Position numbers and translations under genes: made by a program. From contig NZ_KE384020.1 of assembly GCF_000423465.1 (NCBI RefSeq), forward strand, positions 79,409-143,408: a DNA stretch of 64,000 nt, in the 5' to 3' direction. A model generated the notes under the pieces. The model was not told where the DNA came from. It worked only from the letters and a program-made list of their open reading frames with translations, and did no database searches. This document shows, piece by piece, positions 38,569 through 50,334 of this stretch. Numbering within the stretch: position 1 is the stretch's first letter; each line of letters opens with the position of its first letter. The DNA is from Propionicicella superfundia DSM 22317 (lineage in GTDB: Bacteria; Actinomycetota; Actinomycetes; Propionibacteriales; Propionibacteriaceae).

Positions 38569-38748
38569 GGGCGCTCCCTCCCGATCTCCTTTCTCCAAAA
38601 TACCCGGCCCACCGCACGATTCGCTGTGAGCGGCCGCCCCATCGCGTCGGACGGCGAGCGTCGTCCCAGGGGTACGGCCCGGAACAACGCCCTGCGCCGC
38701 TGCATGGGCGGCGACCACGCGACGCTGTTCGATGTTCGATGTTCGAAT

Positions 38749-38764
38749 GTAACGAGCATGTAAC
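38749..38764 (+). promoter_or_regulatory. Possible GlnR half-sites upstream of glnA2
   Basis: Two GTAAC half-sites are separated by exactly 6 nt (38749-38753 and 38760-38764), 25 bp before the glnA2 ATG. The actinobacterial GlnR box is built from GTnAC/GAAAC half-sites at this spacing. The other two half-sites of a full box are not clear. The rest of 38192-38788 holds only the repeat and gene fragments listed separately. Confidence 0.5.
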
Positions 38765-38788
38765 ACGCGACACGGCAGACTTAGGCTC

Positions 38789-40126
38789 ATGGACAAGCAG
38801 ACGGAATTTGTGCTGCACACCATGGAGGAGCGGGACATCCGGTTCGTCCGGCTCTGGTTCACCGACGTCCTGGGGTACCTCAAGTCCGTGGCGATCGCAC
38901 CGGCCGAGGTGGAAGGCGCCCTGAGCGAGGGGATCGGCTTCGACGGCTCGGCGATCGAGGGATTCGCCCGGGTGTACGAGTCGGACATGGTGGCGTACCC
39001 CGACGCGTCGACCTTCCAGCTCCTGCCCTGGCGCGGACTGAAGCAGGGAACGGCGCGCATGTTCTGCGACATCAAGCTTCCCGACGGCTCACCGTCCTAT
39101 GCCGATTCCCGGTTCGTCCTGCGGCGTGCGCTGAAGAAGGCCGCAGGCCTGGGGTTCACGTTCTACACACACCCCGAGATCGAGTTCTACCTCTTCAAGA
39201 CCCCCATCGTCCCCGGTCAGGTGCCTGTCCCCGTCGACAGCAGCGGCTACTTCGACCACACGACGACGGCAGCCGGCGTGGACTTCCGCCGGAAGGCGAT
39301 CACGATGCTGGAACAGATGGGCATCCCGGTCGAGTTCTCCCATCACGAAGGCGGCCCCGGGCAGCAGGAGATCGACCTGCGGTACTCCGACGCCCTCACG
39401 ATGGCCGATGCGATCATGACGTTCCGCGTCGTCATCAAAGAGGTGGCGGCGATGGAGGACATGTTCGCATCCTTCATGCCCAAACCACTGGCCGAACACC
39501 CCGGGTCGGCGATGCATACGCATGTCTCGCTGTTCGAGGGCGACCGGAACGCCTTCTACGACGCGTCGGCCGAGCACAACCTGTCGAAGATCGGCCGCAG
39601 CTTCATCGCCGGGCTGCTGCACCACGCCGGCGAGATCACCGCCGTGACGAACCAGTGGGTCAACTCCTACAAGCGGCTCGCAGCCGGAGGGGAGGCCCCC
39701 GCGTACATCTGCTGGGGGCAGAACAACCGCTCGGCTCTCGTCCGCGTGCCGCTGTACAAGCCGCAGAAGGGCTCGAGCGCCCGCATCGAGCTGCGCTCGG
39801 TGGACTCGTCGGTCAACCCGTATCTGGCGTTCGCCGTCATCCTCAACGCCGGGCTGTCCGGCATCGAACAGGAACTGCCGCTACCCGAGGGCGCCGAGGA
39901 CGACGTGTGGTCGCTCACCGAGCGGGAACGTCGGGCCATGGGCATCCGGCCCCTGCCCCAGAGCCTTGCCCAGGCGATCGCGTTGATGGAAAACTCGGAA
40001 CTGGTCGCCGAAACCCTCGGGGAGCACGTCTTCGACTTCTTCTTGCGGAACAAACGCGCTGAGTACGCTGAATACCGCCGCGAGGTCACCCCGCACGAGC
40101 TCACCAAGCTCCTGCCCACTCTCTGA
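38789..40126 (+). CDS. glnA2: Type I glutamine synthetase, GlnA2 type
   Basis: A 445-residue glutamine synthetase of the shorter GlnA2 class. The start MDKQTEFVLHTMEERDIRFV and the following WFTDVLGYLKSVAI closely match mycobacterial GlnA2. Catalytic-domain motifs include GFDGSAIEGFARVYESDM and FMPKPLAEHPGSAMHTH. The NLYELPPEE-like adenylylation loop of GlnA1 is replaced by DDVWSLTERERR, so GlnE control is unlikely. It condenses glutamate and ammonia with ATP, and lies upstream of ndh, about 4.6 kb before glnE. Confidence 0.93.
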   Translation: MDKQTEFVLHTMEERDIRFVRLWFTDVLGYLKSVAIAPAEVEGALSEGIGFDGSAIEGFARVYESDMVAYPDASTFQLLPWRGLKQGTARMFCDIKLPDGSPSYADSRFVLRRALKKAAGLGFTFYTHPEIEFYLFKTPIVPGQVPVPVDSSGYFDHTTTAAGVDFRRKAITMLEQMGIPVEFSHHEGGPGQQEIDLRYSDALTMADAIMTFRVVIKEVAAMEDMFASFMPKPLAEHPGSAMHTHVSLFEGDRNAFYDASAEHNLSKIGRSFIAGLLHHAGEITAVTNQWVNSYKRLAAGGEAPAYICWGQNNRSALVRVPLYKPQKGSSARIELRSVDSSVNPYLAFAVILNAGLSGIEQELPLPEGAEDDVWSLTERERRAMGIRPLPQSLAQAIALMENSELVAETLGEHVFDFFLRNKRAEYAEYRREVTPHELTKLLPTL

Positions 40127-43177: not shown

Positions 43178-43391
43178 CTGTTCTCCTTCGCGCCGCCGGG
43201 CGGCAGGACCGGGCGTCGAACGTGACCCGGGTGCGGCTCCCGAGTGACAGGGAAAGTACCACGCGGTGCTCGGCACCGGGTTGCGCGCATCCCGGTGCGC
43301 GAGACTCGGGCAGGAGCGGCGACCTTCGCTCACCTGGGTCGAAGTGGAGGGGTTGCCACCATTCGCACGGTTGATGACTACCATCGTCGGC

Positions 43392-46355
43392 GTGAGCAGG
43401 ATGGCGACACTGGCAGGGACGCTGGCGCGCATGGGTTTCATCGATGCGAACCACGCGGCGGTCGTGATCGAGGGCATCCTGGCGGACTTCCGGGGCGAGG
43501 ACTGGCAGTGCTCCGACCTGATCACGCAGATCCTCTCCACCGCCGATCCCGATCTCTGCCTCGGCTCGGCGCAGCGGCTGATCGCGGCCAGGCCGGGGCT
43601 GCTGGACGAGGCGACGGCGGATCCCGGGTTCGCCGGGCGGATCTTCCAGGTTCTCGGGGCGAGCGTCGCCCTCGGACAGCATCTGTACGCCCACCCGGAC
43701 GATGCCGACGTGCTGCGGCCCATCCCCACGAGGACACCCGCCCCGGAGCTGCGCACCGAACTGCTGTCGGCCGTCGGAGCGGATCCGTCATCGCGGACGC
43801 CGGTGGCGAGCGGGACGGGCGACGACCTTCGCCGCGCCTATCGGCGTGCCTTGCTGCGGATCGCGGCGCGGGACGTCACGGCCGCCGACCCCCTGGACGT
43901 GCTGCCGGATGTCTCCGCCGAACTCGCCGACCTGGCCGACGCGACGGTGGAATCGGCGCTGGCGCTCGCCCGGGCCGACGTGCCCGAGTGGCCGACAACC
44001 CGGCTGGGCATCGTGGCCCTCGGCAAGACCGGTGCGCGGGAGCTCAACTATGTCAGCGATGTCGACGTCCTGTACGTGGCCGAGCCGGCTGCGGACGGGA
44101 CGGCGGTGTCCTCCGACGCCGCGATCGCCACCGGGACGAAGCTCGTCGCGGCGCTCAGCCGGATCTGCTCCGCGCACACGGGGGAGGGAACGATCTGGCC
44201 GATCGATGCCGCCCTGCGACCGGAGGGCAAAGCCGGACCCCTCGTCCGCACCATGGCGAGCCACCGGTCCTACTACGAGAAGTGGGCGAAGCCCTGGGAG
44301 TTCCAGGCGATGCTCAAGGCGCGGCCGATGGCCGGTGATCTCGCCCTCGCGCAGGAGTTCTGCGACCTCGTCTCCGTGGGAGTGTGGGCGGTCGGCGAGC
44401 GCGAGCACTTCGTGTCCGATGTGCAGGCGATGCGCAAGCGGGTGATCTCGCTCATCCCCGCGCGGGACCGGACCAGGGAGATCAAACTCGGTGCCGGAGG
44501 CCTGCGCGACGTCGAGTTCACCGTCCAGTTGCTGCAGCTTGTCCACGGTCGCGCCGACCTCCGGCTGCGCAGCCGCGGGACGTTCCCGGCCTTGGAAGCC
44601 CTTATCGCCTACGGGTATGTCGGTCGGGCGGACGGCGCCGAACTCGAACGGGAGTACCGGTTCCAGCGGCTCTTGGAACACCGCCTCCAGTTGTGCAAGC
44701 TGCGGCGCACCCATCTGATGCCGGAGGACCGGCTGGAGGCGCGGCGCCTCGCTCGCAGCGTCGGGCTGCGCGACGGCGAGTCCGTGCAGGACGCGTGGCG
44801 GACGTCCAGCCAGACGGTTCTGCGCCTGCACAGCCGGATGTTCTACTCGCCGCTGCTGGAGGCCGTGTCGCGGATCTCGCGCGACCGCGTGCGCCTGTCG
44901 GCCGACGCTGCCGAGACGTGGCTGACCGCCCTCGGCTACGGCGACGCGAAGGCCGCGCTGCGGCACATCGAGGCGCTGTCGAGCGGCATGTCCCGCAAGG
45001 CCGAGATCCAGCGGCAACTGCTGCCCGCGATGCTGGGCTGGTTCGCCGAGGCGCCCAACCCGGACAACGGGCTGCTGGCGTTCCGGCAGGTCTCGGAGGC
45101 TCTCGGGGACACGCACTGGTACCTGCGCGCGCTGCGCGACGAGGGGGCGATGGCGGAGCGGCTGGCGCACATCCTCTCGGCGAGCCGGTACGCCGTGGAT
45201 CTCCTGCTGCGGGCGCCGCAGAACGTGGCGCTGCTGTCGGATCCGAGCGGTCTCGAACCCCGCGCGACCGAGGACGTCCGCGCCGAGATGACCGTGTCCG
45301 CCCGACGCCACGATTCCGCCGATCTGGCCATCGAGGTGGTGCGGGCCGTCCGGCGACAGGAACTGCTGCGGCTGGCCATGGGCGACCTGCTCGACGAGGC
45401 GGTGAGCCTGGACTCCCTCGGCGAGGGGCTGAGCTCGGTGGCGAGCGCCACCATCGACGCGGCGCTGGAGATCGCGGCTCGCGACGTCCCCGGTGCTCCC
45501 GAGATCGGCGTGATCGCGGTGGGCCGCTGGGGCGGCAACGAGATGTCCTACGCGTCCGATTCCGATGCGATGTTCGTCATCGACGACTCCGACGATCCCG
45601 AGGACGTGCGGCGTGCCATCGATGTCGTTGGCCGGCTGCGGACGCTGCTGTCCCAGCCGGGGCGCGATCCGTCCTTCGTGATCGACGCGGATCTGCGTCC
45701 CGAGGGCAAGGGCGGGCCGATGGTGCGGACGATCGGTTCGTACGCGAAGTACTACGAACGATGGGCTTCGACGTGGGAGGCGCAGGCGATGCTGCGGGCG
45801 CGGCCCGGAGCGGGCTCGCGGCGGCTGGGGGAGCGGCTGGTCGCCGTGCTCGACCCCGTGCGGTACCCGAAGGGAGGTCTCACGGACAAACAGGTCACCG
45901 AGATCCGCCGGCTCAAGGCGCGGATGGAGGTGGAGCGGATGCCGCGCGGGACCGACCCGGCCAAGCACACCAAGCTCGGCCCCGGCGGGCTGTCCGACGT
46001 CGAGTGGGTCGTCCAGTTGCTGCAGTTGCAGCACGGGTGCGAACTCCCCGGCCTGCGGGACACGTCGACGCTGGGCGCGCTGCGTGAGGCGCAGGAAGCC
46101 GGCCTCGTGACGACCGGAGACGCGCAGGCGCTGCGGGGCGCGTGGCGACTGGCGAGCCGCCTCCGGAACGCGATCATGCTCGTCCGGGCCCGTCCCGGCG
46201 ACGTCATCCCCACCGACCCGCGCGAACTCGCTGCGATCGCCGAACTGCTCGGCTACGGCCGCGGGCACGCCTCGGCCCTCATCGAGGACTACCTGCGCCG
46301 GAGCCGGCTGGCGCGCTCGGTCGCGCTGCGCCTGTTCTGGGGCGAGGAGGGCTGA
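43392..46355 (+). CDS. glnE: Glutamine synthetase adenylyltransferase/deadenylase
   Basis: A protein of about 987 residues with two nucleotidyltransferase halves. The first has ELNYVSDVDVLYVAEPA near residue 220 and the second NEMSYASDSDAMFVIDDS near 720. Repeated segments LRPEGKAGPLVRTMASH and LRPEGKGGPMVRTIGSY, and LGAGGLRDVEFTVQLLQLVHG versus LGPGGLSDVEWVVQLLQLQHG (read in pieces), show the internal duplication. It modifies the adenylylation Tyr of GlnA1. GTG at 43392 is chosen because TACCAT lies 7 nt upstream; ATG at 43374 or 43401 is possible. Confidence 0.93.
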   Translation: MSRMATLAGTLARMGFIDANHAAVVIEGILADFRGEDWQCSDLITQILSTADPDLCLGSAQRLIAARPGLLDEATADPGFAGRIFQVLGASVALGQHLYAHPDDADVLRPIPTRTPAPELRTELLSAVGADPSSRTPVASGTGDDLRRAYRRALLRIAARDVTAADPLDVLPDVSAELADLADATVESALALARADVPEWPTTRLGIVALGKTGARELNYVSDVDVLYVAEPAADGTAVSSDAAIATGTKLVAALSRICSAHTGEGTIWPIDAALRPEGKAGPLVRTMASHRSYYEKWAKPWEFQAMLKARPMAGDLALAQEFCDLVSVGVWAVGEREHFVSDVQAMRKRVISLIPARDRTREIKLGAGGLRDVEFTVQLLQLVHGRADLRLRSRGTFPALEALIAYGYVGRADGAELEREYRFQRLLEHRLQLCKLRRTHLMPEDRLEARRLARSVGLRDGESVQDAWRTSSQTVLRLHSRMFYSPLLEAVSRISRDRVRLSADAAETWLTALGYGDAKAALRHIEALSSGMSRKAEIQRQLLPAMLGWFAEAPNPDNGLLAFRQVSEALGDTHWYLRALRDEGAMAERLAHILSASRYAVDLLLRAPQNVALLSDPSGLEPRATEDVRAEMTVSARRHDSADLAIEVVRAVRRQELLRLAMGDLLDEAVSLDSLGEGLSSVASATIDAALEIAARDVPGAPEIGVIAVGRWGGNEMSYASDSDAMFVIDDSDDPEDVRRAIDVVGRLRTLLSQPGRDPSFVIDADLRPEGKGGPMVRTIGSYAKYYERWASTWEAQAMLRARPGAGSRRLGERLVAVLDPVRYPKGGLTDKQVTEIRRLKARMEVERMPRGTDPAKHTKLGPGGLSDVEWVVQLLQLQHGCELPGLRDTSTLGALREAQEAGLVTTGDAQALRGAWRLASRLRNAIMLVRARPGDVIPTDPRELAAIAELLGYGRGHASALIEDYLRRSRLARSVALRLFWGEEG

Positions 46356-48375: not shown

Positions 48376-49806
48376 TCACATGTCGTAGTACATCTCGAAC
48401 TCGTGCGGGTGGGGACGGAGCCGGATGGCGTCGATGTCGGCGCGCTTCATCTCGATCCACGTCTCGATCAGGTCGGCGGTGAAGACGTCGCCCACGAGGA
48501 GGAAGTCATGGTCGGCTTCCAGCGCCTTGAGGACCGCGTCGAGCGAATCCGGGACGGTCGGCACCAGAGCGTGCTCCTCCGGCGGGAGCTCGTACAGGTC
48601 CTTGTCGACGGGCGCGGGCGGCTCGATCTTGTTCTGGATGCCGTCGAGGCCGGCCAGCAGCATGGCGGGGAACGCCAGGTAGGGGTTGGCCGACGGGTCG
48701 GGGCAGCGGAACTCGAGGCGCTTGGCCTTCGGGTTCGAGCCGGTGATCGGGATCCGGACCGACGCCGAACGGTTGCGGCTGGAGTACACCAGGTTGACCG
48801 GCGCCTCGAAGCCCGGCACCAGCCGGTGGTAGCTGTTCACGGTCGGGTTGGTGAACGCCAGCACGGCCGGCGCGTGGTGCAGCAGGCCGCCGATGTACCA
48901 GCGGGCCAGATCGGACAGCCCCGCGTAGCCGGCCTCGTCGTAGAACAGCGGCGCGCCGTCCTTCCAGATGGACTGGTGCACGTGCATGCCCGAACCGTTG
49001 TCGCCGAAGATCGGCTTCGGCATGAAGGTGGCGGTCTTGCCCGCCTCCCAGGCCGTGTTCTTGATGATGTACTTGTACTTCATCAGGTTGTCGCCGGCGT
49101 TGAGCAGCGAGGAGAACTTGGTTGCGATCTCGCTCTGGCCGGCCGTGCCGACCTCGTGGTGGGCGCGCTCGATGGACAGGCCCGATTCGATGAGGTTGCG
49201 CACCATGTCGTCGCGCAGGTCGGCGAAGTGGTCGACCGGGGGCACCGGGAAGTAGCCCCCCTTGTACTTGACCTTGTAGCCGCGGTTGCCGCGACCGTCG
49301 GTGTCGGTCTCGGCGCCGGTGTTCCAGGCGCCGGCCTCGGAGTCGATGTAGTAGAACCCGGCGTTCTGCTTGGTCTCGTACCGCACCGAGTCGAACACGT
49401 AGAACTCGGCCTCGGGGCCCATGTAGGCGGTGTCGCCGATGCCCGTGGAGGCCAGGTAGTTCTCGGCCTTGCGCGCGATGTTGCGCGGATCGCGGCTGTA
49501 CGGCTCCTTGGTCAGCGGATCGTGGACGAAGAAGTTGAGGACCAGGGTCTTCGCCTTGCGGAACGGGTCGAGGAACGCCGTGGTGGCGTCGGGGAGCAGG
49601 GACATGTCGGACTCGTGGATCTTCTGGAACCCGCGGATCGACGAGCCGTCGAACGAGAGTCCCTCCTCGAAGACCTCAGGGCCGAAGAAGTTGGCCGGGA
49701 CCGTGAAGTGCTGCATCACTCCAGGCAGGTCACAGAACCGGACGTCGATCGTCTCGACATCCTCATCCTTGATGAAGGCCAACAGGTCGTCGGCGCCTTT
49801 GAACAT
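48376..49806 (-). CDS. glnA: Type I glutamine synthetase, GlnA1 type
   Basis: A 476-residue dodecameric-type glutamine synthetase. [38 protein letters not shown] and the ATP-binding [19 protein letters not shown] are present. [11 protein letters not shown] near residue 405 contains the Tyr adenylylated by GlnE. GGAGG precedes the ATG (GGAGGAAACATG). TAGGGT at 49842-49837 is a plausible -10, and a four-half-site GlnR-like operator lies just upstream of it. This is probably the main, adenylylation-controlled ammonia-assimilating enzyme. Confidence 0.95.
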
Positions 49807-49852
49807 GTTTCCTCCATGTGCTTGGTGGTCGTAGAAACCCTAGGCACGCCGC

Positions 49853-49890
49853 GTTTCCCATCAGTTGCCGGTTTGTTGCGGGCGTGTTAC
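49853..49890 (-). promoter_or_regulatory. GlnR-like operator upstream of glnA1
   Basis: On the minus strand four pentamers, GTAAC, GCAAC, GCAAC and GAAAC, are spaced by exactly 6 nt each (plus-strand starts 49886, 49875, 49864, 49853). This matches the GlnR arrangement GTnAC-n6-GaAAC-n6-GTnAC-n6-GAAAC in all spacings. It ends about 11 bp upstream of the proposed -10, an activator-like position. Confidence 0.7.
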
Positions 49891-49914
49891 AGCGCCGTCG
49901 TCTACGGTGGGGCC

Positions 49915-50334
49915 GTGAACGACGGACCCACCTTTGCGGGGGCGAGACTCGGCCTGCCCGAAAAGGGCTCCGGCTCGCTGGCCACCTGGCACGCGCGCAT
50001 CGCCGCGCTGGTCATCGACTGGGCGGCGTCCATGATCGTGGCGTCTGCGGTCTTCGGCCCACAGGTGCTCGTCGGACACGACTGGCGCACCTGGATGGTC
50101 ATGGCGGTCTTCTTCGTGGAGTCGACGGTCCTCGGAGCGGTGGTCGGCGGTTCGTTCGGCAAGGTCCTGGCCCGGATCGCGGTGGTGCGCCTCGACGGCG
50201 GCCGCATCGGGTGGGCTCGGGCGGCGTCCCGGGCACTGATGCTGTGCCTGGTGATCCCGGCGGTGGTCGTCGGTGCCGATCGGCGCGCGCTCACCGACGT
50301 CCTGCTCGGCACGGTTGTCGTCAGTCGACGCTGA
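49915..50334 (+). CDS. RDD-family membrane protein
   Basis: A 139-residue protein with the RDD-type pattern: WHARIAALVIDWAASMIVAS, with Arg and Asp in the first helix, and further hydrophobic segments at about 52-80 and 105-125. KVLARIAVVRLDGG separates them. RDD proteins are small membrane proteins of uncertain function, some implicated in cation transport. GTG at 49915 lies 6 nt after TACGGT (49903-49908). It is divergent from glnA1 across the GlnR-like operator. Confidence 0.8.
   Translation: MNDGPTFAGARLGLPEKGSGSLATWHARIAALVIDWAASMIVASAVFGPQVLVGHDWRTWMVMAVFFVESTVLGAVVGGSFGKVLARIAVVRLDGGRIGWARAASRALMLCLVIPAVVVGADRRALTDVLLGTVVVSRR

Follow-up and report, generated by a model that had tools for sequence, protein, structure and literature searches.

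The region upstream of glnA1 in Propionicicella superfundia DSM 22317 carries, at positions 49853-49890 of the 64,000-nt stretch of DNA analysed here (the window), an array of four short half-sites that we predict to be a GlnR operator. The two GlnR boxes formed by these half-sites are very probably bound by the organism's own GlnR, which would recruit RNA polymerase and activate glnA1 under nitrogen limitation. A GlnR operator had already been proposed in a preliminary description of the window, and this reading is now supported because the genome encodes a GlnR orthologue, the promoter geometry is conserved, and the operator and the regulator occur together in the family.

On the glnA1 strand (minus), the array consists of GTAAC (half-site 1, 49886-49890), GCAAC (half-site 2, 49875-49879), GCAAC (half-site 3, 49864-49868) and GAAAC (half-site 4, 49853-49857), separated by the spacers ACGCCC, AAACCG and TGATGG, so that four half-sites follow each other at an exact 11-nt pitch with 6-nt spacers. 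Direct reading of the letters thus reproduced exactly the position, half-sites and 6-nt intervals of the preliminary description. Half-site 1 has the form GTWAC in nearly all relatives, and half-sites 3 and 4 were assigned from the sequence together with comparison of the relatives. The array does not follow the strict a-b-a-b consensus, in that half-site 2 is GCAAC here whereas it is GAAAC in most relatives. In all, half-sites of the GTnAC/GnAAC type at 6-nt spacing form two boxes in front of glnA, that is, at the promoter of a nitrogen-assimilation gene.

The glnA1 gene itself (48376-49806, minus strand) encodes a type I glutamine synthetase of 476 amino acids (TIGR00653, E 1.8e-198), and its ATG at 49806 is preceded by GGAGGAA. 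The array had been described as lying just upstream of TAGGGT and glnA1, and it does: a gap of 10 nt (49852-49843) separates it from TAGGGT (49837-49842, minus strand), which we assign as the putative -10 element of the glnA1 promoter from its sequence and from the spacing of TAnnnT in relatives. We found no consensus -35 element in the glnA1 promoter; the -35 region sits within the operator and is unlike TTGACA.

We then asked how unusual such an array is. In the window, searched on both strands, a half-site score of 15 out of 16 was reached at the glnA1 array only, and in 20 shuffled versions of the window that preserved dinucleotide counts, each scored on one strand, the highest score was 14.5. 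Over the whole genome, the glnA1 array is the sole exact occurrence of four GNNAC units at 11-nt pitch, barring a GGCAC-type simple repeat on contig C14. An operator sequence model was trained on the glnA1 operators of 44 relatives, with the window left out, and was run over the 3.6-Mb genome. The glnA1 array was the best match with an E value of 1.1e-6, and the runner-up had an E value of 0.23.

The closest relatives of glnA1, at 88-90% protein identity, are from Propionicimonas and other Propionibacteriaceae, and the set of 80 relatives that we compared covers Propionibacteriaceae, Nocardioides, Intrasporangiaceae and others. An array of 11-nt pitch was present within 200 nt upstream of glnA1 in 67 of the 80, compared with none of 400 shuffles, and Cutibacterium and Nocardioides are among the relatives that carry the same array. 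A TAnnnT motif followed 9-11 nt downstream of the array in 61 of these 67 (less than 1% expected). Among relatives, the glnA1 start codon lies anywhere between about 80 and 185 nt from the array, whereas the -10 element keeps a constant distance to the array, as expected of an operator-promoter unit. All 20 operator loci examined, our own and those of 19 relatives, lie directly upstream of glnA1. We considered whether A-rich pentamers within a GC-rich intergenic region could have come into line by chance. Patterns of two half-sites do arise at random, with 50 in the genome and 23 in a reversed control, but the retention of the whole array across genera with a fixed spacing to the -10 element and the whole-genome E value of 1e-6 leave this explanation with next to no credence; on comparative grounds, it is already contradicted by the conservation data.

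Because a GlnR operator requires that the genome also encode GlnR, and the preliminary description had made its reading depend on a glnR homologue, we searched the genome for one. Eleven of its proteins carry a DNA-binding domain of the OmpR type (Trans_reg_C), and one of them, G000:C2:135764-136423 (at about 135.8-136.4 kb), has the GlnR-type chains 8hig and 8hih as its best PDB matches (E 4e-69). The protein combines the atypical receiver domain of GlnR (Pfam GlnR_1st PF21695, E 1e-32) with an OmpR-type winged helix (Trans_reg_C PF00486), and its alignment with 8hig is almost identical over the recognition helix region. About 730 nt downstream on the same strand is mshD (mycothiol synthase, TIGR03448), with one TM2-like ORF in between, and linkage of glnR to mshD is typical of actinobacteria. 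By sequence, then, the genome encodes a GlnR orthologue. The scan with the operator model found no GlnR box near glnR itself.

Among 78 genomes of the family, GlnR orthologues (E of 4e-50 or lower) were clearly separated from paralogues (E of 1e-27 or higher). All 57 operator-positive genomes possess GlnR, and all seven GlnR-negative genomes lack the glnA1 operator (Fisher's exact test, p 4e-5, in a test that ignores shared ancestry). The Propionibacteriaceae lacking both are G010, G017, G023, G047, G050, G070 and G072. Fourteen genomes have GlnR and no operator match at E of 0.01 or lower, which may be due to weaker forms of the operator, to the strictness of the filters or to genuine loss.

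PhoP boxes are also built of 11-nt direct-repeat units. The main protein at the array might accordingly be a different member of the OmpR family, PhoP for instance, and GlnR would then play a secondary part or compete with it. The number of Trans_reg_C proteins in the genome leaves room for such a regulator, and PhoP and GlnR sites overlap or adjoin at amtB in Streptomyces (PMC10704036). The half-sites, however, fit the GlnR consensus, including the invariant A at position 4, and loss of the operator follows loss of GlnR in the family. The array is also, we presume, a poor match to the PhoP consensus. Taken together, we regard binding mainly by PhoP or a similar regulator as very unlikely.

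How would GlnR act at this promoter? We propose that two head-to-tail dimers of the GlnR protein identified above would occupy the two adjacent boxes, with their four 5-nt half-sites. The operator would replace the -35 element, ending 10 nt upstream of TAGGGT, and GlnR bound there would make contact with RNA polymerase, initiating glnA1 transcription under nitrogen limitation. An operator that ends 10 nt from the -10 element and covers the -35 region has the geometry of a class II activator site, as for activators of the PhoB/OmpR type. With the operator in place of the -35 element and 10 nt from the -10 element, recruitment of RNA polymerase and activation of glnA1 are the most likely outcome of GlnR binding; what we infer in this model is that GlnR binds, that its effect is positive and that glnA1 responds to nitrogen.

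On the other side of the array lies a gene for an RDD-family membrane protein (49915-50334, plus strand; PF06271, E 1e-5), which is present and divergent from glnA1 in most relatives. A putative -10 element, TACGGT (49904-49909, plus strand), is followed after 5 nt by the GTG start codon at 49915, and a TAnnnT motif 5-8 nt before an in-frame RTG start was found in 40 of 45 relatives, suggesting that the RDD gene probably has its own leaderless promoter. We asked whether the operator could serve both genes, such that GlnR would also act on the RDD gene, either as an activator or by occupying the -35 region of that gene. In the window, only 13 nt lie between the -10 element of the RDD gene and the outer half-site, and the place expected for the -35 element of that gene is overlapped by the operator, so that GlnR bound here may affect the RDD gene; about a third of the relatives have similarly tight spacing. 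In the other relatives, by contrast, 20 to about 117 nt separate the operator from the RDD promoter, with no fixed geometry, and we know of no role for RDD proteins in nitrogen metabolism. In our literature search, no paper came up that ties an RDD gene at glnA to GlnR. We therefore consider dual control unlikely. A bidirectional operator would be expected to keep its spacing to both promoters, and spacing here is fixed for glnA1 and variable for the RDD gene (about 4 to 117 nt across relatives), suggesting that joint control of the two genes has not been conserved. The preliminary description, which had held that the RDD gene may share the control of glnA1, was thus correct that the array faces this gene, but our comparison lends no support to shared control as a trait kept among relatives.

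We also examined other candidate targets of GlnR. The second-best match of the operator model in the window is a box of two half-sites, GTAAC-n6-GTAAC (38749-38764, plus strand), in front of a glnA2-type glutamine synthetase-like gene (38789-40126, plus strand, 445 amino acids; TIGR00653, E 5.6e-132) whose start, MDKQ, is conserved. The box is followed after 11 nt by CAGACT (38776-38781, plus strand), the predicted -10 element of a leaderless promoter conserved in relatives, and CAGACT is 7 nt from the ATG. A box is found at the same place in 17 of 30 genomes (our own and 16 of 29 relatives), compared with 1 of 1500 shuffles, and is missing in the GlnR-less G017; the -10 element is retained in nearly all genomes compared. 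Just upstream of the box, at 38727-38746, are three direct repeats of the TGTTCGA type, which were not seen upstream in relatives. The window further contains glnE, encoding glutamine synthetase adenylyltransferase (43266-46355, plus strand; NF010707), the true start of which is probably inside this ORF.

Outside the window, the single amtB of the genome is followed by a P-II gene (glnK), a pair that serves as a second diagnostic target of GlnR, and the amtB-glnK promoter carries three predicted GlnR boxes, ATAAC-n6-GTAAT, CTAAC-n6-GTAAC and ACAAC-n6-GAAAC (L093:4108-4190). The last half-site is 10 nt from AAGAGT (xAnnnT), which is 7 nt from the ATG of a leaderless mRNA, and this layout recurs in relatives. 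There is no glnD downstream of amtB-glnK; the next gene is ComF-like and on the opposite strand (L093:5557-5981). Scans of the genome with single-box patterns gave mostly chance matches, and none of the 12 neighbourhoods inspected held a clear nitrogen gene. When the box pattern was combined with a filter on -10 spacing, six genome sites remained, of which glnA1, glnA2 and perhaps C2:475580 resemble promoters. The last of these (G000:C2:475580-475611) reads GGAAC-n6-GTAAC-n10-TAGCCT-n6-ATG upstream of a LysE-like exporter gene and is a candidate target. A broader proposal would combine a bidirectional switch that includes the RDD gene with one strict layout of glnA1, glnA2 and amtB (last half-site, 10-11 nt, -10 element, the glnA2 and amtB mRNAs being leaderless) as the mark of the core GlnR regulon in Propionibacteriaceae; we find this combination unlikely.

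The operator is of a known type, since GlnR sites at glnA and the same a-b-a-b consensus have already been reviewed (PMC10704036). The glnA consensus of S. coelicolor, as that review gives it from Tiffert et al. 2008, is gTnAc-n6-GaAAc-n6-GtnAC-n6-GAAAc. Both operators lie in front of the main GSI gene and have two adjacent boxes with four half-sites and 6-nt spacers, and they differ in that half-sites 2 and 3 are both GCAAC here and in that the organism belongs to another family. Conserved GlnR sites in glnA promoters are reported for Propionibacterium acnes, Nocardioides and many other actinomycetes (PMC10704036). The sites listed there for P. acnes and Nocardioides sp. JS614 (Tiffert et al. 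2008) concern the same order, gene and operator type, and the Propionicicella site differs from them in species alone. In Mycobacterium smegmatis, glnA1 and glnA2, near glnE, are both under GlnR control, with the motif Gn2AC-n6-GnAACA (PMC3662644), compared with which the glnA2 of the window has one predicted box and a predicted leaderless promoter. The glnA2 promoter of Streptomyces coelicolor is bound weakly by GlnR and more strongly by acetylated GlnR (PMC8998196).

The operator is thus a textbook element, known from related bacteria and found here in another lineage. By comparative signs, the standard actinobacterial nitrogen switch operates in this little-studied lineage of Propionibacteriaceae, and the fixed gap of about 10 nt between the last half-site and the -10 element at glnA1, glnA2 and amtB provides a simple search rule for GlnR-activated promoters of the family.
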